Origin: Macrolepiota albuminosa
Taxonomy: Eukaryota > Basidiomycota > Agaricomycetes > Agaricales > Agaricaceae
Assembly (NCBI GenBank): GCA_027475525.1
Contig: JAMWFC010000049.1
Span: forward strand, 4,696,947-4,760,946
Direction of reading: 5' to 3'
Length of the DNA stretch: 64,000 bases
Positions 44,001 to 64,000 of this stretch are shown one piece after another; positions within the stretch are counted from its first letter, which is position 1, and each line of letters starts with the position of its first letter. The translations under genes and the position numbers were made by a program. The notes under the pieces are model-generated. The model saw nothing but the letters and a program-made list of their open reading frames with translations, had not been told where the DNA came from and searched no databases.

Positions 44001-44757
44001 GGATGCACAATAGCGGTGCAGCTTGAGCGGTGGTGCATGGGGACCACCATTGAGCATTCAAGTAGCGATTAGTCTTATCGCATAGTTGCTCCTGGAGGGT
44101 GCGCGGACAGCGCGGCAAGTGGTACTTATACTGCTTGTTCTCGTCTATGAGATTAATCTCATGATTCACCTCCCGCCATGGCGGGAGCTCCTCCTTGGTC
44201 CCATTGACCATGTCGGCAAATTCTTCTTGCCATTGCTGACGCAACCGAGGTATATCTTCCTCACAAAGGCTTGTCGCCTTCTGCTTCCCCTTCATGCGTA
44301 CCGGGGGAAGTACTTCCACCATCTCTGAGGGTGGCCGAGGCGGCGGCGCGTACTGTTCTCGCATTGCGAGCACCCGATTGACACTGTCATCAGGTATATG
44401 TAGTCTCAGCGGGGCACCCGCTACCGCTGCCTTACAAGCCACGAGGCTTCTTCCCTCACGTACAAGCGAGTACGCTACGGATACCTCGTCCGGGGCTGGC
44501 TGGCGATACACTGGTTTGACGGTCATCCGTCTCTGGTGCGCATTTCGCGCACACGTGGCTGCCACCAGCTCGTTCCACTCTTGCGGCATTCGGGGGTCGT
44601 ATGCCCAGTCGTACTCCGGTAGGGGAGCTGGTCGTTCCCATAGAGACCGTGTGTCCCCCTCTACTGAGGCTTCCGCCTCTCGGATGCTGTCTTTCAAGTC
44701 TTCCAACTTGACTCGTGAGGACGTAGGTGGACATACATCCACTGAGTCCTCCCGTCA
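41050..44757 (-). pseudogene. pol: Gypsy pol: RT, RNase H, integrase, chromodomain (in-frame TGAs)
   Basis: The continuation of gag-protease in the same frame after TGA 44755-44757. An open stretch of 1,162 codons (44742-41254) holds RT (LLCIPKKDGTLRTALDARQR; active site YLDDIFIY intact), RNase H (WLICDASKTGIGAMYG; HELETLAILEAL; ITDHKALEFF), the integrase HHCC region (HALVGHFGAART ... CASCAACQRAK) and a core with all three acidic residues (GMDFVGPFP, SDRDSKFTSQWW, TDGQTERVNRS). GPYRVLD and FHVSLLRPY follow. After one more TGA (41254-41256) 67 further codons read as a chromodomain-like module (FEVRWSLGDTTWEPHS) to TAA at 41050. The chromodomain would tether integration to modified histone tails. 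Apart from the TGAs the pol looks intact, so the copy is recent. Confidence 0.88.
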
Positions 44758-47700: not shown

Positions 47701-48264
47701 TGGAAGTTCTACAACCTCCTGAGCTTCCTCCACTGCTGGTGTGCGCGGAAATCGATCTTCCGCGCGGTATCCTTCAGGCCTTGCAGCCTCCTCCGGTACC
47801 TCTTCTAAGCGGGCTTCCGCTACTTTAGAAGGCATTGGCCCCGCTGTGGACCGCCTGGTCCCACTGCTCCGGCTCGTAGGGAGGGCTCTCCCAGTCCGTA
47901 CTGACGACTCGGCATCTCCTGGGGCGCCATAGGCGCCGGTTGACTGTCGGCCATCCTGTGGGGGTCCTTTGGAAGCCAGTCGGCTAGACCGTCACAGTCC
48001 TCCTGGCAGCTGCGTAACTGGGGGCGTTAATCCCCCGGGCATCTTGTCCTGGAGGCGTTGCGGACCGTCCTGTTGTGAGCTTTCAGCTCTCCGGGCCTCG
48101 CTCTCATTCCTGGCCAGGTCGGCACTCTGACCTCGGTCTCGAGCCTTGGGTCTTACCTGACCCGCATTGGACGCTGACGCGTCCTGGGTGTCTGCTGGGT
48201 CTCCCCGTAGGTCGTGGGCATTTCGCCCGCCGTCAGTGGGCGCTGCAGGTATGGGATTACTCAT
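44758..48264 (-). pseudogene. gag: Gypsy gag and protease (in-frame TGAs)
   Basis: Translation probably starts at MSNPIPA (48264). TGA at 47992-47994 interrupts the N-terminus. An open 872-codon stretch (47835-45217) carries an acidic region (VMESSSDDDVGAEEQ), a capsid-like part (VQYDWTFKGVLTGLYDRF, FLDGIPADMRRYL), a basic linker and the zinc knuckle CFACGQPGHYATNC. The protease signature WTLWDSGSTTSG follows. TGA at 45217-45219 falls inside the protease, and the frame continues with YDMILGTPFMRRNKVILDF, the usual protease C-terminal strand. Further TGAs are at 44953 and 44755. All lie in one frame with pol, so the ancestral product was a single polyprotein of about 2,404 residues. Confidence 0.85.
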
Positions 48265-48749: not shown

Positions 48750-49376
48750 GCATTATAACCCACCAGTAACTTATTATTTTGACCTGAATTTGCTCGTGGA
48801 GCACATGACTGGCGAATGTGACCAGTGCATGTGGTTCGGGATCTCCCAGGCACATGATCAGGTTGAGTGTCAGAAAGCCGCCCTAAAGTTGAGGGGCTGC
48901 CCAATGACTTGCTTGTGGTCAGACTATAGAAAATTTTATACTGGTTCTTCCGAGAGGGCTCACTGAGCTAGTCTCAGTCAACTGAAGGGTAGCCAACACT
49001 TGCGAAATAAAATCCTACCTGATACACATGGTGCATGGTAACAATCTCACTGAGTGATCTTTAGATAGCAAAAATATGTATTTACAGTTTCACGCTACCC
49101 ACCCACCACTTCCCTTAGAGTACTTAGCAGCCGCATCAGCAGGTACAGAAATTTTTATTTTGACTGAGACCAGCTCAGTGAGCCCTCTCGGAAGAACCAG
49201 TATAAAATTTTCTATAGTCTGACCACAAGCAAGTCATTGGGCAGCCCCTCAACTTTAGGGCGGCTTTCTGACACTCAATCTGATCATGTGCCCAGGAGAT
49301 CCCAAATCACATGCACTGGTCACATGTGCCAGTCACGTGCTCCCTGAGCAAATTCAGGTCAAAATAATAAGTTACT
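48750..49376. repeat. Palindromic MITE-like element, interrupted by the Ngaro cluster
   Basis: The left arm, about 48757-48975 (AGTAACTTATTATTTTGACC ... CCGAGAGGGCTCACTGAGCT), is inverted in the right arm, about 49160-49376, with some 180 nt between. The right arm stops at AAGTTACT, whereas the left arm begins with GAGCATTATAACCCACCAGT before the matching point. So about 20 nt of the right end are displaced by the element starting at 49377. No coding capacity. A single-arm copy lies at 34010. Confidence 0.75.
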
Positions 49377-50532
49377 CGGCGTAAAGGCGAGCGCCGAAGG
49401 TGGTGAGCGTTTTCGGAGGCCTCTGCGTGCTCAGGAGTCCTTCCGGTCACACCCGCACCTTTCCCTCTCCCCAGCTCGTATGCCGATCTCGGCACGGTGC
49501 CACAGTTCTGGCAGATGCCGTAGCGTGGTCAGCACGGCATGCGGTCTCAGACATCTTGGGCAGTCCTTACCTTCCGTCCACCTCCTTCCCCTGCTGCTGC
49601 CCAGGTGAGCGCCGTCGCGCTCTCTCACATTGTTTTATTCTCACCGAGATCCCCGTCTTTTCACAGTTTATCTTTTATTTATTGCCCCCCTATTTATTCT
49701 TCGCTTGCTCCATAAATCATCGGTGAGACTCCCCCTGCGTGGCCACCGGTGAGCCGGGCTCACCTCTCACCATAGATATTTCGCTCTCTCAAAAAGTTGT
49801 TTGTATTGCGCCGTCCACTAGCGAAATATCTAAAGTAAGTTCGCGATGGGAAGGTCGCGTCTTGGCCCCTCGCTCACTTCTTCACACCAGTATACTAGCG
49901 AAATATCTAAAGTAAGTTCGCGATGGGAAGGTCGCGTCTTGGCCCCTCGCTCACTTCTTCACACCAGTATTATTTAGTGTATTTGACGAAAAATATGTGT
50001 AAAATACACTAAATAATACTGGTGTGAAGAAGTGAGCGAGGGGCCAAGACGCGACCTTCCCATCGCGAACTTACTTTAGATATTTCGCTAGTGGACGGCG
50101 CAATACAAACAACTTTTTGAGAGAGCGAAATATCTATGGTGAGAGGTGAGCCCGGCTCACCGGTGGCCACGCAGGGGGAGTCTCACCGATGATTTATGGA
50201 GCAAGCGAAGAATAAATAGGGGGGCAATAAATAAAAGATAAACTGTGAAAAGACGGGGATCTCGGTGAGAATAAAACAATGTGAGAGAGCGCGACGGCGC
50301 TCACCTGGGCAGCAGCAGGGGAAGGAGGTGGACGGAAGGTAAGGACTGCCCAAGATGTCTGAGACCGCATGCCGTGCTGACCACGCTACGGCATCTGCCA
50401 GAACTGTGGCACCGTGCCGAGATCGGCATACGAGCTGGGGAGAGGGAAAGGTGCGGGTGTGACCGGAAGGACTCCTGAGCACGCAGAGGCCTCCGAAAAC
50501 GCTCACCACCTTCGGCGCTCGCCTTTACGCCG
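49377..50532. repeat. Palindrome made of two inverted Ngaro terminal repeats
   Basis: 49377-49975 is the Ngaro leader repeat in plus orientation. About 49980-50532 is the same repeat in minus orientation, belonging to element A. Both outer ends read CGGCGTAAAGGCGAGCGCCG on their own strand, itself a small hairpin (CGGCG/CGCCG). The arms meet around 49975-49995, where the plus copy breaks off after GTGTATTT and the minus copy begins GACGAAAAATATG. All leader introns are retained in both arms. Confidence 0.85.
49818..49971 (+). repeat. 77-bp tandem duplication containing leader intron
   Basis: The unit starting CTAGCGAAATATCTAAA and containing the 56-nt intron occurs twice (49818-49894, 49895-49971); intron copies are 49835-49890 and 49912-49967. 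Other leader copies have it once. Confidence 0.9.
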
Positions 50533-50551
50533 ACCTCTGCAGTTGGGGAGT

Positions 50552-50558
50552 TTTTATA
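50552..50558 (-). promoter_or_regulatory. TATA box at the 3' end of element A
   Basis: TATAAAA on the minus strand lies about 20 nt before the CGGCG boundary of the leader repeat. The same box is at 54129-54123 (B) and 63983-63989 (C). Confidence 0.6.
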
Positions 50559-50815
50559 GCGCCGAAACTGGTCACGCGGAAGCGTGACCCATTAAATTGA
50601 AGAAAAGAGAGGCGAAAAAGCGACTATTGGCTAGGAAAAAGCTGACGAGGAGAGAGGTGGGGAGGAGGTGGTGAGAAAGATGTTGCGGGAGCTGAGCCGA
50701 ACAAGAAGTAGATTGAAATTATGATCGTGGATTTTTCGTTTTTGTTGCAGGAGCAGGGTCGAAGTAGAATCAGATTGAAAAAAAAACCCGTGTGTCTGTT
50801 CGTGAACTTTTTGTT

Positions 50816-51859
50816 TTATGGTCGTGAATCTTTGTGGAGGTGAAATTCGTGAATGAAAAGAGGATGCTTGCGTTTGTGGAGAGCAGCGAGCTCGAATTCG
50901 GCCCGTACGGAGGGGTTATCCCTGAGGTAGGTCCTCCAAGCTTGCGAAGTCCAGCGACCGATAGCCATAATGACGTCTTCCGAGAGGCCTAAGGATGCGT
51001 AAAACGTGGCTCCTCCAGCACGCGGGGAGTGACCACCGTAAGTTCGATCGAGGAAAGAGGAAAGCTTAGAGTCGAACCAGGCTCGCGTCGGAATGGAACC
51101 ATCTTGGCGGAGGAAGAGTGCAAAACGTGCACCGTGTATAGCGTCGCGACGAGACGTGTATTCACCGAGAAGATTAACTGGGTCAGCCACATTATGGTGG
51201 GCGAACATTACTTTAGAGCCCGTGAAAAATCGGTCGGTTTTATGGTACGGCAGATCATAGGATGCGTATCCATGCGAGAACTGAAGAGAAGAACGTTTGA
51301 TGATTTTGCGCCAGTCTAAAGCAGACTTCGACCTGATCACAAGTTCCCCCGAACGGTGGCATGCGTAGAAAGCGCATGACATCAGGGTTGCAAACAACAG
51401 GTCGTCAAAGTCGTTAGACGTTCGAGCCCGGGTGACGAATCTTTGCAGGTGAGCGATTCGGAGAGGAAGTTTACGATGGATCGGATCCGCGCGAATTTTC
51501 TTTGCGCCTTTAATTGCAGCTTTTACGAGGGGATGTGATCTGTTAACGTCGAAATCGGGGTAGATATTACGAAGGAAGTGACCAGCGCCTGAGAGATATT
51601 TCGGTGCAGAAGCTATATATCTAGAAGTGAACGCTACATATTTAGACAGAGTTTGGGGAGTAGGGTCAATTGGAAGGTTGTGAGAGGAACAAAAATTGAC
51701 GTAGTCTCGTGCTCCTGTAGCATAACAGGAGACTGTCGATTTTTCTATGGCTTCAGTTTGAACGTGAAGAGTCCAAGCGTCTAGATCAGCACTGGACATC
51801 GGTTGGCGGGCCGCTTTTCGAGACGACCCGCCAATTGCCTTCAAAAGGATTTGTTCCAT
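50816..51859 (-). CDS. Tyrosine recombinase (element A)
   Basis: 347 residues, identical in predicted protein to the copies in B and C. Catalytic residues are visible: Arg169 in CHRSGEL, His277-x-x-Arg280 in HSPRAGG, and nucleophile Tyr311 in RWTSQAWRTYL; Lys207 (YHKTDR) fits the beta-hairpin Lys. Such enzymes integrate circular DNA copies of DIRS/Ngaro elements without target-site duplication. The ATG overlaps the end of the RT frame. Confidence 0.9.
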   Translation of the reverse strand: MEQILLKAIGGSSRKAARQPMSSADLDAWTLHVQTEAIEKSTVSCYATGARDYVNFCSSHNLPIDPTPQTLSKYVAFTSRYIASAPKYLSGAGHFLRNIYPDFDVNRSHPLVKAAIKGAKKIRADPIHRKLPLRIAHLQRFVTRARTSNDFDDLLFATLMSCAFYACHRSGELVIRSKSALDWRKIIKRSSLQFSHGYASYDLPYHKTDRFFTGSKVMFAHHNVADPVNLLGEYTSRRDAIHGARFALFLRQDGSIPTRAWFDSKLSSFLDRTYGGHSPRAGGATFYASLGLSEDVIMAIGRWTSQAWRTYLRDNPSVRAEFELAALHKRKHPLFIHEFHLHKDSRP

Positions 51860-53473
51860 CGCGCCGGCAGAGAGTCTCTAGGGGGCTCAAAGTCATGGAC
51901 GCGGTAAGCAGGAAAACGGCGATGAAAATCGTCGAAAAGGAGGCGTGATAAGAGGTCAGCCCGCGTGTTGTCCTTACCTGCTATGTGTCGAACACGCAAG
52001 TCTATTCCGGTTTCAATGATTATTCCAGCCACAGCCTTCACTACGGAGTTATGCATGTCTTCTGCTGCGCCGAGAGTGTTAAAGACTGAAACGGAGTCAA
52101 GACTATCAGTGAAAATAAGCAATCTTTTTGGAGGGTGATCGAAAGAAGCAACGTGATGGATGCTCGAGAGGATGGCCAATAGCTCAAGGAAGAAGATGTC
52201 GACTTTAGGCTTTGAGTGGTCCGGATTCAGCTTATAGACAAAACCATTCCCCGCATAGACAAATGCAAGGGCCAGTTTTAGACTAGCATCAGTCCATAAA
52301 ACGAAATCGGCCGAAGCGTCGTCCCAATTTGTTGCGTCGAGGAATCTTATCCCTATTGCCGAAGGAAGAACCTTGAGCAGCCAAGACATATCATCTGTTA
52401 CTTCCCTGTTGAGGAAAACTCCGGCATGCAGTGTTGTTTTAGATGCTATCTTTCGATATAACGACGATAATGCTGGGCGACCCCACGGTAATACATTGAG
52501 AAGCCAGTTGAGATGGCCAGCAAGGCGCATCCAAGCACGGAGGGGTGGACGACGGTTGGGAGTGTTGACGAAGTCGAAAATCTTCGTGAAGATGTCATCG
52601 ATGGAATCTTTGGTCAGAGTAATAGTGCCTTGGTTTATATCGACCCAGAATCCGATGATCTTAAGGCACTCCCCGAATTCTTGCTTCTTCTCGTCCCACG
52701 GACAGCCGATGGAGTCCCAAAGAATGAGAAGTTGAGCTTGGTGTCTTGGCCTTAATTTGCCTTTGAAGTTCACCAAGTCGGTGGCTCGGTCCCACGAAAA
52801 GAAGTCGTCCATGAAATCATGCAGGTCGGGCATATCTAATTTAGTAACCGCTAACCAGCACATTAAACCTGCCAGTGCGCACCAACAACGAGGGGAAGCT
52901 CGGTTCCCAAATACCAAACGGTGCACTATGCGCCACACACCGTCAACCTTGACGAGCTGTCGTAGCTGCCACAAAGGGTGTGCAGGGAGATTTAGGAAAG
53001 CACTTGAGACATCAGATTTCCAAGTCACCAAAGACTCTGAAGGATGTCGGCGCTTAGCGTTGTAAAGTACTTGCCCAAATGTCCTCATGTCGTCATACTT
53101 CACCTTAACATCAGTTTTTGAGATGCCATCGTTTAGACCGGAAGCTGTATGATCGGTTACGACTCTTGGTTTTCCCTTTTGCCAAACGACAAAAAGAGGA
53201 GACGATTTCATTCCTGGTAGAAGCTTGTCGATGTCGATGGGATCGGACCAACGTTTGGCTTCAATCTCTTTTTTCTGGAAGTCCCTGATGGCGTTGAGGT
53301 CCAAATCTTCCGTCGCGTAATTATCCAGAGGCTCCGCTGCATTCGAATCCCAATTCCCATCATCAAATGGCCAGAAACCTTCCCTGAGACCTTTCATGAC
53401 TGATGCGACGAAAGGCTGGTTGGGGTGATCCCAGAGCATGGCTTCAAAGGAATCAACATTGAAGGGTGTCGTG
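51841..53473 (-). pseudogene. RT-RNase H ORF2 (element A, 5'-truncated)
   Basis: An open frame continues up to the truncation point at 53473; the first Met is at 53439 (532 residues to the stop). RT motifs A to C and RNase H are intact, but ORF1, the ORF2 N-terminus and the usual leader are gone. Confidence 0.85.
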
Positions 53474-53553
53474 ACCCATTAAATTGAAGAAAAGAGAGGC
53501 GAAAAAGCGACTACTGGCTACCTTATTTAATAATACAGGGTGAGGAGGGAGGG

Positions 53554-54103
53554 TTGACGAAAAATATGTGTAAAATACACTAAATAATACTGGTGTGAAG
53601 AAGTGAGCGAGGGGCCAAGACGCGACCTTCCCATCGCGAACTTACTTTAGATATTTCGCTAGTGGACGGCGCAATACAAACAACTTTTTGAGAGAGCGAA
53701 ATATCTATGGTGAGAGGTGAGCCCGGCTCACCGGTGGCCACGCAGGGGGAGTCTCACCGATGATTTATGGAGCAAGCGAAGAATAAATAGGGGGGCAATA
53801 AATAAAAGATAAACTGTGAAAAGACGGGGATCTCGGTGAGAATAAAACAATGTGAGAGAGCGCGACGGCGCTCACCTGGGCAGCAGCAGGGGAAGGAGGT
53901 GGACGGAAGGTAAGGACTGCCCAAGATGTCTGAGACCGCATGCCGTGCTGACCACGCTACGGCATCTGCCAGAACTGTGGCACCGTGCCGAGATCGGCAT
54001 ACGAGCTGGGGAGAGGGAAAGGTGCGGGTGTGACCGGAAGGACTCCTGAGCACGCAGAGGCCTCCGAAAACGCTCACCACCTTCGGCGCTCGCCTTTACG
54101 CCG
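53554..54103 (-). repeat. Leader repeat A2 of element B, introns retained
   Basis: 550 nt from CGGCG to CGTCAA. Introns on the minus strand: 53875-53814 (62 nt, GTGAGC...CACAG), 53757-53705 (53 nt, GTGAGA...CATAG) and 53645-53590 (56 nt, GTAAGT...ACCAG). Confidence 0.9.
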
Positions 54104-54122
54104 ACCTCTGCAGTTGGGGAGT

Positions 54123-54129
54123 TTTTATA
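54123..54129 (-). promoter_or_regulatory. TATA box at the 3' end of element B
   Basis: TATAAAA on the minus strand, about 20 nt upstream of leader repeat A2. It would drive transcription into A2 and, in a head-to-tail array, into the next element. Confidence 0.6.
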
Positions 54130-54386
54130 GCGCCGAAACTGGTCACGCGGAAGCGTGACCCATTAAATTGAAGAAAAGAGAGGCGAAAAAGCGACTATTG
54201 GCTAGGAAAAAGCTGACGAGGAGAGAGGTGGGGAGGAGGTGGTGAGAAAGATGTTGCGGGAGCTGAGCCGAACAAGAAGTAGATTGAAATTATGATCGTG
54301 GATTTTTCGTTTTTGTTGCAGGAGCAGGGTCGAAGTAGAATCAGATTGAAAAAAAAACCCGTGTGTCTGTTCGTGAACTTTTTGTT

Positions 54387-55430
54387 TTATGGTCGTGAAT
54401 CTTTGTGGAGGTGAAATTCGTGAATGAAAAGAGGATGCTTGCGTTTGTGGAGAGCAGCGAGCTCGAATTCGGCCCGTACGGAGGGGTTATCCCTGAGGTA
54501 GGTCCTCCAAGCTTGCGAAGTCCAGCGACCGATAGCCATAATGACGTCTTCCGAGAGGCCTAAGGATGCGTAAAACGTGGCTCCTCCAGCACGCGGGGAG
54601 TGACCACCGTAAGTTCGATCGAGGAAAGAGGAAAGCTTAGAGTCGAACCAGGCTCGCGTCGGAATGGAACCATCTTGGCGGAGGAAGAGTGCAAAACGTG
54701 CACCGTGTATAGCGTCGCGACGAGACGTGTATTCACCGAGAAGATTAACTGGGTCAGCCACATTATGGTGGGCGAACATTACTTTAGAGCCCGTGAAAAA
54801 TCGGTCGGTTTTATGGTACGGCAGATCATAGGATGCGTATCCATGCGAGAACTGAAGAGAAGAACGTTTGATGATTTTGCGCCAGTCTAAAGCAGACTTC
54901 GACCTGATCACAAGTTCCCCCGAACGGTGGCATGCATAGAAAGCGCATGACATCAGGGTTGCAAACAACAGGTCGTCAAAGTCGTTAGACGTTCGAGCCC
55001 GGGTGACGAATCTTTGCAGGTGAGCGATTCGGAGAGGAAGTTTACGATGGATCGGATCCGCGCGAATTTTCTTTGCGCCTTTAATTGCAGCTTTTACGAG
55101 GGGATGTGATCTGTTAACGTCGAAATCGGGGTAGATATTACGAAGGAAGTGACCAGCGCCTGAGAGATATTTCGGTGCAGAAGCTATATATCTAGAAGTG
55201 AACGCTACATATTTAGACAGAGTTTGGGGAGTAGGGTCAATTGGAAGGTTGTGAGAGGAACAAAAATTGACGTAGTCTCGTGCTCCTGTAGCATAACAGG
55301 AGACTGTCGATTTTTCTATGGCTTCAGTTTGAACGTGAAGAGTCCAAGCGTCTAGATCAGCACTGGACATCGGTTGGCGGGCCGCTTTTCGAGACGACCC
55401 GCCAATTGCCTTCAAAAGGATTTGTTCCAT
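54387..55430 (-). CDS. Tyrosine recombinase (element B)
   Basis: Same 347-residue protein as in A and C, with R169, H277, R280 and Y311 present. One synonymous CpG/TpG difference from A and C lies at 54936. The ATG lies 19 nt inside the end of ORF2, a start-stop overlap that suggests coupled translation or a separate mRNA. Confidence 0.92.
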   Translation of the reverse strand: MEQILLKAIGGSSRKAARQPMSSADLDAWTLHVQTEAIEKSTVSCYATGARDYVNFCSSHNLPIDPTPQTLSKYVAFTSRYIASAPKYLSGAGHFLRNIYPDFDVNRSHPLVKAAIKGAKKIRADPIHRKLPLRIAHLQRFVTRARTSNDFDDLLFATLMSCAFYACHRSGELVIRSKSALDWRKIIKRSSLQFSHGYASYDLPYHKTDRFFTGSKVMFAHHNVADPVNLLGEYTSRRDAIHGARFALFLRQDGSIPTRAWFDSKLSSFLDRTYGGHSPRAGGATFYASLGLSEDVIMAIGRWTSQAWRTYLRDNPSVRAEFELAALHKRKHPLFIHEFHLHKDSRP

Positions 55431-57367
55431 CGCGCCGGCAGAGAGTCTCTAGGGGGCTCAAAGTCATGGACGCGGTAAGCAGGAAAACGGCGATGAAAAT
55501 CGTCGAAAAGGAGGCGTGATAAGAGGTCAGCCCGCGTGTTGTCCTTACCTGCTATGTGTCGAACACGCAAGTCTATTCCGGTTTCAATGATTATTCCAGC
55601 CACAGCCTTCACTACGGAGTTATGCATGTCTTCTGCTGCGCCGAGAGTGTTAAAGACTGAAACGGAGTCAAGACTATCAGTGAAAATAAGCAATCTTTTT
55701 GGAGGGTGATCGAAAGAAGCAACGTGATGGATGCTCGAGAGGATGGCCAATAGCTCAAGGAAGAAGATGTCGACTTTAGGCTTTGAGTGGTCCGGATTCA
55801 GCTTATAGACAAAACCATTCCCCGCATAGACAAATGCAAGGGCCAGTTTTAGACTAGCATCAGTCCATAAAACGAAATCGGCCGAAGCGTCGTCCCAATT
55901 TGTTGCGTCGAGGAATCTTATCCCTATTGCCGAAGGAAGAACCTTGAGCAGCCAAGACATATCATCTGTTACTTCCCTGTTGAGGAAAACTCCGGCATGC
56001 AGTGTTGTTTTAGATGCTATCTTTCGATATAACGACGATAATGCTGGGCGACCCCACGGTAATACATTGAGAAGCCAGTTGAGATGGCCAGCAAGGCGCA
56101 TCCAAGCACGGAGGGGTGGACGACGGTTGGGAGTGTTGACGAAGTCGAAAATCTTCGTGAAGATGTCATCGATGGAATCTTTGGTCAGAGTAATAGTGCC
56201 TTGGTTTATATCGACCCAGAATCCGATGATCTTAAGGCACTCCCCGAATTCTTGCTTCTTCTCGTCCCACGGACAGCCGATGGAGTCCCAAAGAATGAGA
56301 AGTTGAGCTTGGTGTCTTGGCCTTAATTTGCCTTTGAAGTTCACCAAGTCGGTGGCTCGGTCCCACGAAAAGAAGTCGTCCATGAAATCATGCAGGTCGG
56401 GCATATCTAATTTAGTAACCGCTAACCAGCACATTAAACCTGCCAGTGCGCACCAACAACGAGGGGAAGCTCGGTTCCCAAATACCAAACGGTGCACTAT
56501 GCGCCACACACCGTCAACCTTGACGAGCTGTCGTAGCTGCCACAAAGGGTGTGCAGGGAGATTTAGGAAAGCACTTGAGACATCAGATTTCCAAGTCACC
56601 AAAGACTCTGAAGGATGTCGGCGCTTAGCGTTGTAAAGTACTTGCCCAAATGTCCTCATGTCGTCATACTTCACCTTAACATCAGTTTTTGAGATGCCAT
56701 CGTTTAGACCGGAAGCTGTATGATCGGTTACGACTCTTGGTTTTCCCTTTTGCCAAACGACAAAAAGAGGAGACGATTTCATTCCTGGTAGAAGCTTGTC
56801 GATGTCGATGGGATCGGACCAACGTTTGGCTTCAATCTCTTTTTTCTGGAAGTCCCTGATGGCGTTGAGGTCCAAATCTTCCGTCGCGTAATTATCCAGA
56901 GGCTCCGCTGCATTCGAATCCCAATTCCCATCATCAAATGGCCAGAAACCTTCCCTGAGACCTTTCATGACTGATGCGACGAAAGGCTGGTTGGGGTGAT
57001 CCCAGAGCATGGCTTCAAAGGAATCAACATTGAAGGGTGTCTCAACGCGTATGTAATCTTTCATTGTTTCTAGTGTTGATCGGATATTAGGGTCGGAAAA
57101 TAAAACAGAAGGGGGAGATGGAAGTGGCGTAGCTGTCATAGTGTCACGAGCTGATGGAGACATAAGTGAGATATGAGAAGAACTGTTCCAGACGAAACCT
57201 CTACGAAAACGAGGTGAATTTTGAGTAAGAGAGTCATTAGGACGTTTGCGGATAGAAGAGAGAGATCTAGGCCCATGACTAATTGCCTCATCAACTCTAC
57301 GCCTCGAGTCCGCCTGTTGCTCGATGAGATTGACGTCGTGCTCTGAGCTTAGAGAGGCATTCCTCAT
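55412..57367 (-). CDS. Reverse transcriptase-RNase H, ORF2 (element B)
   Basis: Probable start at the ATG at 57367 (MRNASLSSEH), overlapping the ORF1 end by 71 nt, giving 651 residues. RT motif A is around Asp262 (TWKSDVSSAFLNL), motif B GNRASPRCWCALA, motif C FMDDFFSWD (Asp330, Asp331). RNase H acidic residues sit in LWTDASLKLALAF (Asp503), FFLELLAI (Glu538), FTDSLDSVS (Asp564) and GKDNTRADLLS. The frame is open far upstream, through all of ORF1 (to 58666), so the start is inferred from overlap style rather than a stop. No methyltransferase domain, which favours Ngaro over DIRS1-type. Confidence 0.85.
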   Translation of the reverse strand: MRNASLSSEHDVNLIEQQADSRRRVDEAISHGPRSLSSIRKRPNDSLTQNSPRFRRGFVWNSSSHISLMSPSARDTMTATPLPSPPSVLFSDPNIRSTLETMKDYIRVETPFNVDSFEAMLWDHPNQPFVASVMKGLREGFWPFDDGNWDSNAAEPLDNYATEDLDLNAIRDFQKKEIEAKRWSDPIDIDKLLPGMKSSPLFVVWQKGKPRVVTDHTASGLNDGISKTDVKVKYDDMRTFGQVLYNAKRRHPSESLVTWKSDVSSAFLNLPAHPLWQLRQLVKVDGVWRIVHRLVFGNRASPRCWCALAGLMCWLAVTKLDMPDLHDFMDDFFSWDRATDLVNFKGKLRPRHQAQLLILWDSIGCPWDEKKQEFGECLKIIGFWVDINQGTITLTKDSIDDIFTKIFDFVNTPNRRPPLRAWMRLAGHLNWLLNVLPWGRPALSSLYRKIASKTTLHAGVFLNREVTDDMSWLLKVLPSAIGIRFLDATNWDDASADFVLWTDASLKLALAFVYAGNGFVYKLNPDHSKPKVDIFFLELLAILSSIHHVASFDHPPKRLLIFTDSLDSVSVFNTLGAAEDMHNSVVKAVAGIIIETGIDLRVRHIAGKDNTRADLLSRLLFDDFHRRFPAYRVHDFEPPRDSLPARWNKSF

Positions 57368-58679
57368 TGTCTCTAGCTCTATGTTTATTCCCACACTCGC
57401 AGCAAACACCGTGCCGACGATTGTTCGAACACGGATCCACATTGCAATAACCCAGGTTCCAGTTTTGGCAAATCGTCGAGGCTCGCCTTTTGTTTGGAGT
57501 GAAACGAAAGAAGGAAGTACGCTTGGTTCCCAGCGTTGGGTGGGAAGCAGCCGCCGAGACGCCAATGAGCTGCGAAAGGAGAGGAATATGGAGCTCATTG
57601 GGATCGTTAAGCCTAAAAGGATTTCGTGCATATCTGTTTCGCGTGTCTGCATCGAAATTAATTGCCATCGAAACAGCTCCGAGAGAGGAACGAATGAAAT
57701 CAACGATTCTGCCACGATAAAAGGCCAGCTCAATCTTGCGATGCGGATAAAAGGATATAACTCCGTCTGCCCAAGCGTCAAAAACCCTGGCCCAGTCAGA
57801 TTCCGACAAAATCGGACGACGAGCAGTAGCATGATCCTTTTTGATAATGGAGAAACCCCCGATGAAGTCTTTCGGTTCATCGTTGTAGTCATAACCTTTG
57901 TCCAAGGTCGCGTAGAGCTTCTCGAAATCGACGTAGTGATCGAGTATGATGAGACGCCAAATAGATCGCGAAATGGGATCTTTGAGCTTCTTGAGTTGGG
58001 CGAGATTGACGAGAGAGTCGATGACTTTTTCTTTCCCATACTCCTGTCGGAGCTCCCACGTTTTGGCCAGGTGAGGGTCGAACGAAGCTTCGTCCTGAAA
58101 AGAAGCGAGGTGTGGCGCAATGGCGAGCAAGGAAGGAGGAATAGCGGCAACTTCTGAGTCCTTGGACTCAAAACCAGCGTTTTGGATATCAAATCGAGTG
58201 GGCTGATCCATCCTCGCATCTTTCCTGGAGGGGTCCACCTGATCGAGCAGAGATGCCCATGCAGCCGACTCGATTGCTTGGGCATGAGAGGACGATTGAA
58301 AGTCCGGACCTTGAACAGGGAGAGTTGCACTTCGATCTGGTCCTTTTGAATGTTCAGGTGGTACCGATGGGGAACATGGACGAGAGACATCAGGCTCTTC
58401 TCTAGCCTTCGCTTGTCGAATTTCAAGACGACGCTTGGCTGCGTCAATAAAGTCTCGAGCTTCGTCTGGTCTGAACCCCGATACTTGGAGAGAAACCACA
58501 AGATCTGAGAGGGTACGTGCTCCCTCGACTGTTTCGTCGACCAGTTTTTGACCAGCCTCTGATTTGGCACGGACTGCTTCAAGACTTTGATCATGACCAA
58601 AGACTTGTCCTTCTGGCACCTCACTAGCATGGCGGATACAAGTTTCACAACGGCAAGACTGGACATTCTCGGAGCTCAT
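57297..58679 (-). CDS. Gag-like ORF1 with Cys/His cluster (element B)
   Basis: 460 residues. The N-terminus has CRCETCIRH (a small Cys motif), then charged helices (about 25-95), a Pro/Ser linker and a helical core (about 170-390, e.g. YGKEKVIDSLVNLAQLKKL, FDAWADGVISFYPHRKIEL). At about 404-441 is a Cys/His cluster (CQNWNLGYC ... CSNNRRHGVCCECGNKH ... C), similar to the zinc-binding tail of DIRS/Ngaro gag proteins. It probably binds the RNA for particle formation. It differs from C by one residue (Asp versus Asn at 57941) and a few silent CpG changes. Confidence 0.8.
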   Translation of the reverse strand: MSSENVQSCRCETCIRHASEVPEGQVFGHDQSLEAVRAKSEAGQKLVDETVEGARTLSDLVVSLQVSGFRPDEARDFIDAAKRRLEIRQAKAREEPDVSRPCSPSVPPEHSKGPDRSATLPVQGPDFQSSSHAQAIESAAWASLLDQVDPSRKDARMDQPTRFDIQNAGFESKDSEVAAIPPSLLAIAPHLASFQDEASFDPHLAKTWELRQEYGKEKVIDSLVNLAQLKKLKDPISRSIWRLIILDHYVDFEKLYATLDKGYDYNDEPKDFIGGFSIIKKDHATARRPILSESDWARVFDAWADGVISFYPHRKIELAFYRGRIVDFIRSSLGAVSMAINFDADTRNRYARNPFRLNDPNELHIPLLSQLIGVSAAASHPTLGTKRTSFFRFTPNKRRASTICQNWNLGYCNVDPCSNNRRHGVCCECGNKHRARDNEECLSKLRARRQSHRATGGLEA

Positions 58680-58725
58680 GGATAGATGATGATGACGAGG
58701 ATGAACGAGTAGAAAATTGACGAAA

Positions 58726-58915
58726 AATATGTGTAAAATACACTAAATAATATTTAGATATTTCGCTAGTGGACGGCGCAATACAAACAACTTTTTGAGA
58801 GAGCGAAATATCGATGATTTATGGAGCAAGCGAAGAATAAATAGGGGGGCAATAAATAAAAGATAAACTGGGCAGCAGCAGGGGAAGGAGGTGGACGGAA
58901 GGTAAGGACTGCCGG
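58726..58915 (-). repeat. Leader repeat A1 of element B, all three introns precisely absent
   Basis: Compared with 53554-54103, three blocks of exactly 62, 53 and 56 nt are missing at CCCAG|TTTAT, CATCG|ATATT and CTAAA|TATTA (coding strand). Each absent block begins GT and ends AG. The 5' end is truncated at GGCAGTCC, where it joins the oppositely oriented element C with a possible CC microhomology. Confidence 0.93.
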
Positions 58916-59073
58916 TCACACCCGCACCTTTCCCTCTCCCCAGCTCGTATGCCGATCTCGGCACGGTGCCACAGTTCTGGCAGATGCCGTAGCGTGGTCA
59001 GCACGGCATGCGGTCTCAGACATCTTGGGCAGTCCTTACCTTCCGTCCACCTCCTTCCCCTGCTGCTGCCCAG

Positions 59074-59135
59074 GTGAGCGCCGTCGCGCTCTCTCACATT
59101 GTTTTATTCTCACCGAGATCCCCGTCTTTTCACAG
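59074..59135 (+). other. Leader intron 1 (62 nt)
   Basis: GTGAGC donor and TTTTCACAG acceptor with a TCTCAC/CTCACC branch-site-like sequence. Its intron status is shown by exact absence from the leader of element B. Confidence 0.88.
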
Positions 59136-59191
59136 TTTATCTTTTATTTATTGCCCCCCTATTTATTCTTCGCTTGCTCCATAAATCATCG

Positions 59192-59244
59192 GTGAGACTC
59201 CCCCTGCGTGGCCACCGGTGAGCCGGGCTCACCTCTCACCATAG
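59192..59244 (+). other. Leader intron 2 (53 nt)
   Basis: GTGAGA donor, CTCTCACCATAG acceptor region. Exactly absent from the leader of element B. Confidence 0.88.
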
Positions 59245-59303
59245 ATATTTCGCTCTCTCAAAAAGTTGTTTGTATTGCGCCGTCCACTAGCGAAATATCT
59301 AAA

Positions 59304-59359
59304 GTAAGTTCGCGATGGGAAGGTCGCGTCTTGGCCCCTCGCTCACTTCTTCACACCAG
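59304..59359 (+). other. Leader intron 3 (56 nt)
   Basis: GTAAGT donor, CTCACTTCTTCACACCAG acceptor region. Exactly absent from element B and tandemly duplicated with its 5' exon flank at 49818-49971. Confidence 0.88.
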
Positions 59360-59432
59360 TATTATTTAGTGTATTTTACACATATTTTTCGTCAATTTTC
59401 TACTCGTTCATCCTCGTCATCATCATCTATCC

Positions 59433-60815
59433 ATGAGCTCCGAGAATGTCCAGTCTTGCCGTTGTGAAACTTGTATCCGCCATGCTAGTGAGGTGCCAGA
59501 AGGACAAGTCTTTGGTCATGATCAAAGTCTTGAAGCAGTCCGTGCCAAATCAGAGGCTGGTCAAAAACTGGTCGACGAAACAGTCGAGGGAGCACGTACC
59601 CTCTCAGATCTTGTGGTTTCTCTCCAAGTATCGGGGTTCAGACCAGACGAAGCTCGAGACTTTATTGATGCAGCCAAGCGTCGTCTTGAAATTCGACAAG
59701 CGAAGGCTAGAGAAGAGCCTGATGTCTCTCGTCCATGTTCCCCATCGGTACCACCTGAACATTCAAAAGGACCAGATCGAAGTGCAACTCTCCCTGTTCA
59801 AGGTCCGGACTTTCAATCGTCCTCTCATGCCCAAGCAATCGAGTCGGCTGCATGGGCATCTCTGCTCGATCAGGTGGACCCCTCCAGGAAAGATGCGAGG
59901 ATGGATCAGCCCACTCGATTTGATATCCAAAACGCTGGTTTTGAGTCCAAGGACTCAGAAGTTGCCGCTATTCCTCCTTCCTTGCTCGCCATTGCGCCAC
60001 ACCTCGCTTCTTTTCAGGACGAAGCTTCGTTCGACCCTCACCTGGCCAAAACGTGGGAGCTCCGACAGGAGTATGGGAAAGAAAAAGTCATCGACTCTCT
60101 CGTCAATCTCGCCCAACTCAAGAAGCTCAAAGATCCCATTTCGCGATCTATTTGGCGTCTCATCATACTCAATCACTACGTCGATTTCGAGAAGCTCTAC
60201 GCGACCTTGGACAAAGGTTATGACTACAACGATGAACCGAAAGACTTCATCGGGGGTTTCTCCATTATCAAAAAGGATCATGCTACTGCTCGTCGTCCGA
60301 TTTTGTCGGAATCTGACTGGGCCAGGGTTTTTGACGCTTGGGCGGACGGAGTTATATCCTTTTATCCGCATCGCAAGATTGAGCTGGCCTTTTATCGTGG
60401 CAGAATCGTTGATTTCATTCGTTCCTCTCTCGGAGCTGTTTCGATGGCAATTAATTTCGATGCAGACACGCGAAACAGATATGCACGAAATCCTTTTAGG
60501 CTTAACGATCCCAATGAGCTCCATATTCCTCTCCTTTCGCAGCTCATTGGCGTCTCGGCGGCTGCTTCCCACCCAACGCTGGGAACCAAGCGTACTTCCT
60601 TCTTTCGTTTCACTCCAAACAAAAGGCGAGCCTCGACGATTTGCCAAAACTGGAACCTGGGTTATTGCAATGTGGATCCGTGTTCGAACAATCGTCGGCA
60701 CGGTGTTTGCTGCGAGTGTGGGAATAAACATAGAGCTAGAGACAATGAGGAATGCCTCTCTAAGCTCAGAGCACGACGTCAATCTCATCGAGCAACAGGC
60801 GGACTCGAGGCGTAG
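59433..60815 (+). CDS. Gag-like ORF1 with Cys/His cluster (element C)
   Basis: 460 residues, same protein as in B except Asn for Asp in the helical core (codon at 60171). The ATG lies 38 nt after the leader repeat end, in AT-rich sequence. The same DNA is also open in the ORF2 frame and has a long antisense frame (60788-59955); I treat the latter as a shadow. Confidence 0.8.
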   Translation: MSSENVQSCRCETCIRHASEVPEGQVFGHDQSLEAVRAKSEAGQKLVDETVEGARTLSDLVVSLQVSGFRPDEARDFIDAAKRRLEIRQAKAREEPDVSRPCSPSVPPEHSKGPDRSATLPVQGPDFQSSSHAQAIESAAWASLLDQVDPSRKDARMDQPTRFDIQNAGFESKDSEVAAIPPSLLAIAPHLASFQDEASFDPHLAKTWELRQEYGKEKVIDSLVNLAQLKKLKDPISRSIWRLIILNHYVDFEKLYATLDKGYDYNDEPKDFIGGFSIIKKDHATARRPILSESDWARVFDAWADGVISFYPHRKIELAFYRGRIVDFIRSSLGAVSMAINFDADTRNRYARNPFRLNDPNELHIPLLSQLIGVSAAASHPTLGTKRTSFFRFTPNKRRASTICQNWNLGYCNVDPCSNNRRHGVCCECGNKHRARDNEECLSKLRARRQSHRATGGLEA

Positions 60816-62700
60816 AGTTGATGAGGCAATTAGTCATGGGCCTAGATCTCTCTCTTCTATCCGCAAACGTCCTAATGACTCTCTTACTCAAAATTCACCT
60901 CGTTTTCGTAGAGGTTTCGTCTGGAACAGTTCTTCTCATATCTCACTTATGTCTCCATCAGCTCGTGACACTATGACAGCTACGCCACTTCCATCTCCCC
61001 CTTCTGTTTTATTTTCCGACCCTAATATCCGATCAACACTAGAAACAATGAAAGATTACATACGCGTTGAGACACCCTTCAATGTTGATTCCTTTGAAGC
61101 CATGCTCTGGGATCACCCCAACCAGCCTTTCGTCGCATCAGTCATGAAAGGTCTCAGGGAAGGTTTCTGGCCATTTGATGATGGGAATTGGGATTCGAAT
61201 GCAGCGGAGCCTCTGGATAATTACGCGACGGAAGATTTGGACCTCAACGCCATCAGGGACTTCCAGAAAAAAGAGATTGAAGCCAAACGTTGGTCCGATC
61301 CCATCGACATCGACAAGCTTCTACCAGGAATGAAATCGTCTCCTCTTTTTGTCGTTTGGCAAAAGGGAAAACCAAGAGTCGTAACCGATCATACAGCTTC
61401 CGGTCTAAACGATGGCATCTCAAAAACTGATGTTAAGGTGAAGTATGACGACATGAGGACATTTGGGCAAGTACTTTACAACGCTAAGCGCCGACATCCT
61501 TCAGAGTCTTTGGTGACTTGGAAATCTGATGTCTCAAGTGCTTTCCTAAATCTCCCTGCACACCCTTTGTGGCAGCTACGACAGCTCGTCAAGGTTGACG
61601 GTGTGTGGCGCATAGTGCACCGTTTGGTATTTGGGAACCGAGCTTCCCCTCGTTGTTGGTGCGCACTGGCAGGTTTAATGTGCTGGTTAGCGGTTACTAA
61701 ATTAGATATGCCCGACCTGCATGATTTCATGGACGACTTCTTTTCGTGGGACCGAGCCACCGACTTGGTGAACTTCAAAGGCAAATTAAGGCCAAGACAC
61801 CAAGCTCAACTTCTCATTCTTTGGGACTCCATCGGCTGTCCGTGGGACGAGAAGAAGCAAGAATTCGGGGAGTGCCTTAAGATCATCGGATTCTGGGTCG
61901 ATATAAACCAAGGCACTATTACTCTGACCAAAGATTCCATCGATGACATCTTCACGAAGATTTTCGACTTCGTCAACACTCCCAACCGTCGTCCACCCCT
62001 CCGTGCTTGGATGCGCCTTGCTGGCCATCTCAACTGGCTTCTCAATGTATTACCGTGGGGTCGCCCAGCATTATCGTCGTTATATCGAAAGATAGCATCT
62101 AAAACAACACTGCATGCCGGAGTTTTCCTCAACAGGGAAGTAACAGATGATATGTCTTGGCTGCTCAAGGTTCTTCCTTCGGCAATAGGGATAAGATTCC
62201 TCGACGCAACAAATTGGGACGACGCTTCGGCCGATTTCGTTTTATGGACTGATGCTAGTCTAAAACTGGCCCTTGCATTTGTCTATGCGGGGAATGGTTT
62301 TGTCTATAAGCTGAATCCGGACCACTCAAAGCCTAAAGTCGACATCTTCTTCCTTGAGCTATTGGCCATCCTCTCGAGCATCCATCACGTTGCTTCTTTC
62401 GATCACCCTCCAAAAAGATTGCTTATTTTCACTGATAGTCTTGACTCCGTTTCAGTCTTTAACACTCTCGGCGCAGCAGAAGACATGCATAACTCCGTAG
62501 TGAAGGCTGTGGCTGGAATAATCATTGAAACCGGAATAGACTTGCGTGTTCGACACATAGCAGGTAAGGACAACACGCGGGCTGACCTCTTATCACGCCT
62601 CCTTTTCGACGATTTTCATCGCCGTTTTCCTGCTTACCGCGTCCATGACTTTGAGCCCCCTAGAGACTCTCTGCCGGCGCGATGGAACAAATCCTTTTGA
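60745..62700 (+). CDS. Reverse transcriptase-RNase H, ORF2 (element C)
   Basis: 651 residues from the proposed ATG at 60745, 71 nt inside the end of ORF1. RT and RNase H active-site residues are as in element B. The last codons overlap the recombinase ATG (62682). The chain of short overlaps ORF1/ORF2/recombinase is shared by B and C. Confidence 0.85.
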   Translation: MRNASLSSEHDVNLIEQQADSRRRVDEAISHGPRSLSSIRKRPNDSLTQNSPRFRRGFVWNSSSHISLMSPSARDTMTATPLPSPPSVLFSDPNIRSTLETMKDYIRVETPFNVDSFEAMLWDHPNQPFVASVMKGLREGFWPFDDGNWDSNAAEPLDNYATEDLDLNAIRDFQKKEIEAKRWSDPIDIDKLLPGMKSSPLFVVWQKGKPRVVTDHTASGLNDGISKTDVKVKYDDMRTFGQVLYNAKRRHPSESLVTWKSDVSSAFLNLPAHPLWQLRQLVKVDGVWRIVHRLVFGNRASPRCWCALAGLMCWLAVTKLDMPDLHDFMDDFFSWDRATDLVNFKGKLRPRHQAQLLILWDSIGCPWDEKKQEFGECLKIIGFWVDINQGTITLTKDSIDDIFTKIFDFVNTPNRRPPLRAWMRLAGHLNWLLNVLPWGRPALSSLYRKIASKTTLHAGVFLNREVTDDMSWLLKVLPSAIGIRFLDATNWDDASADFVLWTDASLKLALAFVYAGNGFVYKLNPDHSKPKVDIFFLELLAILSSIHHVASFDHPPKRLLIFTDSLDSVSVFNTLGAAEDMHNSVVKAVAGIIIETGIDLRVRHIAGKDNTRADLLSRLLFDDFHRRFPAYRVHDFEPPRDSLPARWNKSF

Positions 62701-63725
62701 AGGCAATTGGCGGGTCGTCTCGAAAAGCGGCCCGCCAACCGATGTCCAGTGCTGATCTAGACGCTTGGACTCTTCACGTTCAAACTGAAGCCATAGAAAA
62801 ATCGACAGTCTCCTGTTATGCTACAGGAGCACGAGACTACGTCAATTTTTGTTCCTCTCACAACCTTCCAATTGACCCTACTCCCCAAACTCTGTCTAAA
62901 TATGTAGCGTTCACTTCTAGATATATAGCTTCTGCACCGAAATATCTCTCAGGCGCTGGTCACTTCCTTCGTAATATCTACCCCGATTTCGACGTTAACA
63001 GATCACATCCCCTCGTAAAAGCTGCAATTAAAGGCGCAAAGAAAATTCGCGCGGATCCGATCCATCGTAAACTTCCTCTCCGAATCGCTCACCTGCAAAG
63101 ATTCGTCACCCGGGCTCGAACGTCTAACGACTTTGACGACCTGTTGTTTGCAACCCTGATGTCATGCGCTTTCTACGCATGCCACCGTTCGGGGGAACTT
63201 GTGATCAGGTCGAAGTCTGCTTTAGACTGGCGCAAAATCATCAAACGTTCTTCTCTTCAGTTCTCGCATGGATACGCATCCTATGATCTGCCGTACCATA
63301 AAACCGACCGATTTTTCACGGGCTCTAAAGTAATGTTCGCCCACCATAATGTGGCTGACCCAGTTAATCTTCTCGGTGAATACACGTCTCGTCGCGACGC
63401 TATACACGGTGCACGTTTTGCACTCTTCCTCCGCCAAGATGGTTCCATTCCGACGCGAGCCTGGTTCGACTCTAAGCTTTCCTCTTTCCTCGATCGAACT
63501 TACGGTGGTCACTCCCCGCGTGCTGGAGGAGCCACGTTTTACGCATCCTTAGGCCTCTCGGAAGACGTCATTATGGCTATCGGTCGCTGGACTTCGCAAG
63601 CTTGGAGGACCTACCTCAGGGATAACCCCTCCGTACGGGCCGAATTCGAGCTCGCTGCTCTCCACAAACGCAAGCATCCTCTTTTCATTCACGAATTTCA
63701 CCTCCACAAAGATTCACGACCATAA
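62682..63725 (+). CDS. Tyrosine recombinase (element C)
   Basis: 347 residues with the complete R-H-R-Y set (R169, H277, R280, Y311). Identical protein to A and B. Downstream 63726-64000 is the B1 region: a T9 run at 63754-63762, TTCAATTTAATGGGTCAC and the TATA box. Confidence 0.92.
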   Translation: MEQILLKAIGGSSRKAARQPMSSADLDAWTLHVQTEAIEKSTVSCYATGARDYVNFCSSHNLPIDPTPQTLSKYVAFTSRYIASAPKYLSGAGHFLRNIYPDFDVNRSHPLVKAAIKGAKKIRADPIHRKLPLRIAHLQRFVTRARTSNDFDDLLFATLMSCAFYACHRSGELVIRSKSALDWRKIIKRSSLQFSHGYASYDLPYHKTDRFFTGSKVMFAHHNVADPVNLLGEYTSRRDAIHGARFALFLRQDGSIPTRAWFDSKLSSFLDRTYGGHSPRAGGATFYASLGLSEDVIMAIGRWTSQAWRTYLRDNPSVRAEFELAALHKRKHPLFIHEFHLHKDSRP

Positions 63726-63982
63726 AACAAAAAGTTCACGAACAGACACACGGGTTTTTTTTTCAATCTGATTCTACTTCGACCCTGCTCCTGCAACAAA
63801 AACGAAAAATCCACGATCATAATTTCAATCTACTTCTTGTTCGGCTCAGCTCCCGCAACATCTTTCTCACCACCTCCTCCCCACCTCTCTCCTCGTCAGC
63901 TTTTTCCTAGCCAATAGTCGCTTTTTCGCCTCTCTTTTCTTCAATTTAATGGGTCACGCTTCCGCGTGACCAGTTTCGGCGC

Positions 63983-63989
63983 TATAAAA
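63983..63989 (+). promoter_or_regulatory. TATA box at the 3' end of element C
   Basis: TATAAAA preceded by a short inverted repeat GTCACGC/GCGTGAC (about 63952-63970). In the copies at 50.5 and 54.1 kb this box stands about 20 nt before the leader repeat. Confidence 0.6.
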
Positions 63990-64000
63990 ACTCCCCAACT

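Follow-up and report, generated by a model that had tools for sequence, protein, structure and literature searches.

Can the DNA of a retrotransposon copy reveal that the RNA from which it was made had been spliced? This question is raised by a 64,000-nucleotide stretch of the Macrolepiota albuminosa genome (hereafter the window), a part of contig C114 in a genome of 100 Mb and 129 contigs, where four nearly identical pieces of one element, in the order X-A-B-C, extend from position 49377 to past the window end. The element is a Ngaro-type tyrosine-recombinase retrotransposon, with an A1-[ORFs]-B1-A2-B2 layout (ORF, open reading frame), a Cre-like recombinase and a protein with reverse transcriptase (RT) and RNase H parts; the first of its two A repeats, A1, forms the leader ahead of ORF1. 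An earlier interpretation of the letters of the window (the sequence-only reading) had counted five leader copies, all of which we found again, and had proposed that the leader of B has lost exactly three introns. From the comparison of copies we consider it highly probable that this element carries three leader introns, that B is a DNA copy of a partly spliced RNA, and that the usual cycle keeps or restores the introns. The features needed for this argument are:

58680..58913, minus strand: A1 leader of B, without the first 182 leader nucleotides (nt) and without all three introns; ORF1 starts at 58679
58912..59395, plus strand: A1 leader of C, without the first 66 nt but with all three introns; the part shared by A1 and A2 ends here
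59074..59135, plus strand: intron 1 in C, GTGAGC...CACAG, 62 nt
59192..59244, plus strand: intron 2 in C, GTGAGA...CATAG, 53 nt, with nested stems GTGAGA/TCTCAC and GGTGAGC/GCTCACC
59304..59359, plus strand: intron 3 in C, GTAAGT...CCAG, 56 nt, with hairpin CGCGA-TGGGAAGG-TCGCG
53554..54103, minus strand: A2 leader of B, three introns kept (53875-53814, 53757-53705 and 53645-53590)

Spliced copies of the leader and their splice signals

Joined at 58868/58867, 58812/58811 and 58753/58752, the exons of the B leader match the in-silico spliced leader of C without a single mismatch over the 259 nt compared, and the three missing GT...AG blocks of 62, 53 and 56 nt are as they had first been described. 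The placement of the borders is ambiguous by 3, 1 and 0 nt for introns 1, 2 and 3, which leaves GT...AG as the sole reading of intron 3. Among the 13,940 possible deletions of 40-80 nt in the leader stretch covered by B, just 47 are GT-AG compatible; three independent deletions of this kind would arise by chance with a probability of about 4e-8. A genome search with the spliced leader of B gave no contiguous match apart from B itself. Spliced junction 3, the unspliced intron-3 donor and an intron-2 motif were searched as whole-genome patterns with up to one mismatch, each beside a control; spliced junction 2 occurs exactly in B alone, and its two-mismatch matches (34) were fewer than those of the reversed control (89). 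That this leader lost three spliceosomal introns when a spliced RNA was reverse transcribed is much the strongest interpretation, and it is supported by an independent copy in another subfamily.

The pattern of spliced junction 3 gave three matches in the genome (five for the reversed pattern), and the two exact ones are B and a locus on contig C95. The third, a one-mismatch match on C11, does not belong to this element. On C95, an A1 leader starts only about 14 nt ahead of the junction, intron 3 is exactly absent at a position identical to that in B, and the ORF1 start comes next; the sequence beside the junction resembles L039, a leader of another subfamily than B. An open recombinase frame with 84% identity to that of C lies about 3.3 kb downstream on the same strand (C95:1365580-1366617), and nearly 5 kb downstream, again on the same strand, an A2 leader has introns 1 and 2 and then breaks off. 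Order, strand and spacing suggest that these three parts belong to one element. Precise intron absence, which we took as one mark of spliceosomal introns in reverse-transcribed copies, is thus found for three introns in B and for intron 3 on C95. As the sequence-only reading stated, B alone among the window copies lacks the introns, but it is not the sole spliced copy genome-wide; the proposal of that reading that B was reverse transcribed from spliced RNA gains support from C95 and has to be narrowed, since only the A1 of B is spliced. In B and on C95 alike, the spliced A1 is truncated at its 5' end and the A2 contains intron sequence. This is no more than a hint that 5' truncation and splicing are connected, because C and other copies have a truncated A1 that is unspliced.

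We also asked how widely the introns and their signals are distributed. The genome search with the leader found at least 41 leader places, with identities from 100 down to 74%, and 7 smaller pieces (from the best 40 of 156 candidates, which were scored). The unspliced intron-3 donor has 97 matches in the genome (control 1), and an intron-2 motif has 90 (control 1). A part of the places found was read, and it provided 80 leader pieces no shorter than 250 nt for scoring; exact absence of any intron was seen in none of these 80. All three introns are covered by 73 pieces, 48 of them distinct, and in these 48 a GT donor is present at introns 1, 2 and 3 in 44, 48 and 46 copies, an AG acceptor in 47, 48 and 48, and a CTNAY site ahead of the acceptor in 47, 48 and 45. 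GT-AG borders and a branch-point-like site, a second mark of spliceosomal introns, are thus kept almost always across diverged copies, in keeping with the earlier suggestion that the untranslated leader carries such introns.

Pairwise identity was computed for 30 distinct copies, after 8 of 49 rows (B, X and repeat views of one place) had been dropped and identical leaders merged. Mean values are 0.88 for intron 2, 0.81 for intron 3 and 0.74 for intron 1, against 0.75 for exon 1, 0.61 for exon 2, 0.70 for the exon between introns 2 and 3 and 0.72 for the last stretch; conservation is thus higher in introns 2 and 3 than in the adjacent exons, and intron 1 is like exon 1. In intron 3, TGGGAAGG, itself well conserved, is enclosed by a stem of six pairs. 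This stem was evaluated in 43 of the 48 distinct copies, leaving aside three with partial introns and two repeats: 87.3% of its cells are paired, a value reached by 1 of 500 shuffles; 20 cells are changed on both sides, against a shuffle mean of 7.3 and with no shuffle as high; and the covariation score exceeds that of all shuffles, with 0 to 7 double-changed cells when the stem is slid. Relatedness of the copies can inflate the paired-cell, double-change and covariation measures. Other controls run contrary: the numbers of double-change pairs (4) and of pair types (8) were reached by 368 and 369 of 500 shuffles, and the outermost pair forms in just 20 of 42 copies. The stems of intron 2 are 98.0% paired (39 of 48 copies), with little variation and 2 cells changed on both sides, which makes this a weak case. 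A hairpin in intron 1 (92.5% of cells paired, 40 of 48 copies) showed covariation no better than shuffles (67 of 500 reach it) and is not claimed, and the folding score of the whole-leader RNA (z = -2.78) was not used as evidence.

Retention of the introns and alternative explanations

The copying of RNA to DNA by tyrosine-recombinase retrotransposons is poorly known, and introns in a repeat present at both ends provide a natural tracer, since they mark whether an A1 was copied from a spliced A1, an unspliced A1 or an A2. Among 17 A1/A2 pairs, 7 are identical and 13 have an identity of 98% or more; between different elements the mean is 72% (105 pairs of 15 A1 copies). The pairs on C108 and C79 have rearranged leaders and were compared over only 391 and 359 columns, and the two repeats of the C85 pair are 16.5 kb apart and may not be one element. 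In young elements A1 thus equals A2, and both repeats therefore seem to come from one template per cycle, introns included. Intron sequence is kept in all 18 pieces that are labelled A1, a rough label, and have a complete 5' end; among them, L016 has lost the donor part of intron 3, and the piece L118 stops within that intron. The usual route therefore appears to keep or restore the introns. In B, A1 alone is spliced, and its own A2 keeps all three.

We propose the following cycle. Three short spliceosomal introns sit in the untranslated A repeat, and transcripts starting at or near the 5' end of A1 would be spliced in the cell at least in part. B is then most probably the complementary DNA (cDNA) of such an RNA, with a spliced A1, an unspliced A2 at the 3' side and an incomplete 5' end. 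It would have been inserted as part of a single end-joined array that also contains fragments of sister cDNAs, apparently without the element's own recombinase. The usual cycle would keep introns either because unspliced RNA is preferred as template or because A1 is rebuilt from an unspliced A2, and the A1 of B may be a first-strand product that never got to the rebuilding step.

It is possible, though rather doubtful, that the introns act as a sorting device, with RNA signals present on unspliced RNA only, such that the spliced form would be the messenger and the unspliced RNA, or else the unspliced A2 copy, the genome; the candidate signals, equally tentative, would be the intron-3 hairpin, whose UGGGAAGG loop is well conserved, and the intron-2 palindrome. 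Such a device would explain the conservation of introns 2 and 3 as well as the count of 2 spliced junctions against 97 unspliced donor matches. Intron conservation would be equally compatible with an RNA signal and with a role in DNA, such as recombinase or promoter sites. A translational switch was also considered, since intron 3 contains an upstream ATG that, as long as the leader is unspliced, overlaps with the start of ORF1; the argument is weak because spliced and unspliced forms both carry three other upstream ATGs.

Several observations weigh against the proposed reading. C95 shows the loss of intron 3 alone, since just about 14 nt of upstream exon remain, and its A2, which ends just past intron 2 (acceptor TTG), covers no intron 3. 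The A1 of C is unspliced although its 5' end is truncated, and the two features are therefore not strictly coupled. The intron-1 donor is AT in 4 of the 48 distinct copies. The occurrence of a spliced A1 beside an unspliced A2 in one RNA has no explanation in the proposed cycle. Finally, 4 of the 80 scored pieces show partial intron losses: L016 and L104 are without the donor side of intron 3, L093 is without an inner part of it, and in L099 intron 1 is shortened inside. Copies lacking only parts of the blocks had been named beforehand as a finding that would refute intron loss; they do occur, but their borders differ from the exact junctions, and they are ordinary deletions that do not explain the two exact-junction copies.

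Alternatively, a spliced cDNA might have converted the chromosomal A1 of B or recombined with it, in which case this A1 would not itself be an integrated cDNA. A local conversion would yield what is seen, an A2 with introns beside an A1 without them, and this alternative is a variant of the proposed reading because it still requires reverse transcription of spliced RNA. We nevertheless think it unlikely, given that the A1 of B is 5'-truncated and meets C head to head, the two sharing 2 nt, and that a 9-nt repeat flanks the whole array, both of which fit capture of cDNA ends. An artefact of assembly, or contaminating cDNA joined into the contig, also deserves attention, since a head-to-head inverted repeat is a structure that assemblers can create. 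It is made very unlikely by the 4 differences between the arms of B and C and the single difference between A and B, by the spliced junction of its own at the unrelated C95 locus, and by the matching repeats on both sides of the array.

It could further be supposed that a reverse transcriptase skipped hairpin blocks in unspliced RNA, as stems do exist in the introns and the borders of intron 1 carry a 3-nt repeat. The stems do not coincide with the lost blocks, however, intron 3 has no border repeat, the exact junction recurs in another subfamily (C95), and splice signals are almost always kept in the 48 distinct copies, so that we give this idea hardly any credence. That the leader of B is the ancestral intronless form and that the other copies gained introns has nothing in its favor past the presence/absence pattern itself; with none of 80 scored pieces exactly lacking an intron, and with leader matches of as little as 74% identity beside a B that is distinguished from C by just 4 of 4641 positions, its probability is close to nil. 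Reverse transcription of a partly spliced RNA thus stays the preferred reading of B.

Relation to known retroelements

The comparisons in this section concern the consulted portions of the cited articles. The order A1-[ORFs]-B1A2B2 is described for a Cafeteria Ngaro (PMC8547959) and A-pol-B-A-B for Ngaro elements of Basidiomycota (PMC3783388). The present element resembles these in its A1-[ORFs]-B1-A2-B2 repeats, its RT-RNase H and its downstream tyrosine recombinase, and differs from the Ngaro elements described there in having leader introns and spliced copies. Words beginning with intron, splic, untranslated or promoter are absent from the searched text of PMC3783388 and of a DIRS1-like overview (PMC3266345). 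The remark of the sequence-only reading that it knew of no multi-intron leaders described in Ngaro/DIRS elements is consistent with the literature examined, in which no Ngaro or DIRS leader with introns was found and which leaves most subscription journals outside.

The closest working analogue of the spliced Ngaro copies is the spliced integrated human L1 copies called SpIREs, 131 of 6,609 annotated full-length L1s of subfamilies L1PA1-L1PA6 (PMC5860796). Both are rare genomic copies that exactly lack a spliced-out part of the 5' untranslated region. In contrast, L1 lacks long terminal repeats (a non-LTR element) and uses target-primed reverse transcription, whereas three conserved introns lie here in a repeat at both ends, and because the intron-bearing repeat is present at both element ends, the unspliced form can be kept or restored. 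With its tyrosine recombinase and split direct repeats, the element is not of L1 origin and its copies are not SpIREs proper. Penelope-like elements retain spliceosomal introns through retrotransposition (PMC3846280, citing Arkhipova et al. 2003) and are in this respect similar; their introns lie in an ORF or in mobilized host genes, with antisense templates proposed (PMC3846280), unlike the introns in an untranslated repeat described here, of which spliced copies exist. In mouse, reverse-transcribed spliced mRNA was captured at double-strand breaks (PMC4516963), and a similar joining of spliced cDNA and retrotransposon pieces into breaks is what we propose for X-A-B-C; most breaks in the mouse case were induced by CRISPR/Cas (PMC4516963), while here capture would follow from junctions and flanking repeats.

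The spliced copies provide DNA-level evidence for an RNA intermediate of a Ngaro element, and by analogy with retroviruses they suggest that splicing may part messenger from genome in this group. The support added beyond the first observation consists of a second independent spliced copy and of the wide conservation of the splice signals.

Organization of the element and of the array

The remaining parts of the element and of the array are:

49368..49376, no strand: left copy of TAAGTTACT; the right copy follows the cut B2 of C beyond the window (C114, about 4761614); target-duplication-like array ends
49377..49982, plus strand: leader-only copy X, with canonical 5' end CGGCGTAAAGG, introns present and a 77-nt tandem duplication over intron 3
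49983..53470, minus strand: element A, 5'-truncated, with A2 leader and its introns, B1, recombinase and part of the RT
53471..53553, minus strand: linker and truncated B2 of B
54104..54190, minus strand: B1 repeat of B, upstream limit approximate
54387..55430, minus strand: tyrosine recombinase ORF of B
55412..57010, minus strand: RT-RNase H part of ORF2 of B, frame open up to 58666
57297..58679, minus strand: ORF1 of B, no family match
59433..60815, plus strand: ORF1 of C
61102..62700, plus strand: RT-RNase H part of ORF2 of C
62682..63725, plus strand: tyrosine recombinase of C
C114:4761018-4761504, just beyond the window: sixth leader copy, the A2 of C

Comparison of copies gives the order A1 (leader), ORF1, ORF2, recombinase, B1, A2, linker and B2, with internal B1|A2 junctions in several copies, that is, the split direct repeats characteristic of Ngaro; the termini are CGGCGTAAAGG...CTGCAGAGG, with (T)CGGCGTAAAGG at the 5' end and ...GGCGCTATAAAACTCCCCAACTGCAGAGG at the 3' end. 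In the recombinase, R169, H277, R280 and Y311 are invariant in 23 of 23 aligned sequences, and we take them to be the R, HxxR and Y residues of tyrosine recombinases. Its structural model (mean pLDDT, the predicted local confidence, 68) has Cre as best Foldseek match (E 2.6e-6, TM-score 0.37). In the RT-RNase H, M210-D211-D212, E419, D445 and D495 are invariant in 22 of 22 aligned sequences and D384 nearly so, presumably as RT and RNase H motifs; the model is poor (mean pLDDT 62), and its best fold matches are retroviral RTs with TM-scores near 0.2. One of the RT relatives bears the reverse transcriptase domain name, and named relatives occur in Pleurotus, Mycena and Tricholomella, which by itself would point to a probable agaricomycete host. 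ORF1 is presumably gag-like, from its position and its Cys-rich C-terminus. A Pfam search with the three ORFs (E up to 10) gave no match; Pfam likewise returned no DNA adenine methyltransferase domain, in a search that also missed the RT and the recombinase of this element. The recombinase search listed 119 matches, including distant families at about 25-36% identity. In both B and C, the ORF2 frame (59446-62700 in C, 1084 codons) stays open through nearly all of ORF1, perhaps owing to expression by frameshift or to composition.

In the B1 of B, a TATA-like box (GGCGCTATAAAA from 54134) lies about 25 nt ahead of the A2 start, and such a box closes B1 and B2 at about this distance ahead of A (54104-54190, 50534-50620 and 63960-64000). 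Since B2 ends like B1, a B|A junction in a circle or tandem would set the box before a full leader, and a single integrated A1 has no such box ahead of it. The box may represent a promoter.

B and C meet head to head at 58912-58913 and share 2 nt there, leader homology beginning at 58913 (leader position 183) in B and at 58912 (leader position 67) in C; the boundary at 58915/58916 given by the sequence-only reading was thus slightly off. The two differ at 4 of 4641 aligned positions, and A and B at 1 of 3488, so that B, C and A are separate copies and not one read folded back. The array consists of truncated pieces that lie in both orientations. On its left side X starts with the canonical end of the element, directly after TAAGTTACT; on its right side C stops within B2, and AAGTTACT comes next, here too preceded by T. 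In all, the array (49368 to C114 about 4761621) has TAAGTTACT at both flanks, an intact 5' end and a cut B2, and because of the 9-nt flanking repeats the whole array of about 15 kb resembles one insertion with a 9-nt target duplication. As judged from junctions and flanking repeats, the simplest reading would be the capture of several cDNAs at one break.

Elsewhere in the genome, the leaders L014, L027 and L118 have intact 5' ends, cut 3' ends and, by eye, target duplications of about 130, 55 and 12 bp; L014 and L027 are, also by eye, solo A-linker-B2 copies with a cut B2 and the longer target duplications. At two full-length copies on C14 no target duplication was seen by eye.

In X, the duplication at 49817-49967 repeats intron 3. 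The Rfam search (E up to 1) gave seven microRNA (miRNA) rows, mir-2513 and others, all under gathering scores, six on a palindrome at 49.9-50.06 kb, the X/A inverted junction (49925-50061), and one on the B/C inverted repeat; the matches at 49925-50061 are probably due to the inverted junction. The array starts directly at the right end of an inverted repeat of 217 nt (95%; 48765-48981 and 49160-49376) that resembles a fold-back transposon. A genome-wide RVT_1 search gave at least 150 matches, those scored of 2743 candidates, and, further upstream in the window, long minus-strand open frames at 41254-44742 and 45217-47835 look, by eye alone, like a Gypsy-type pol and gag.
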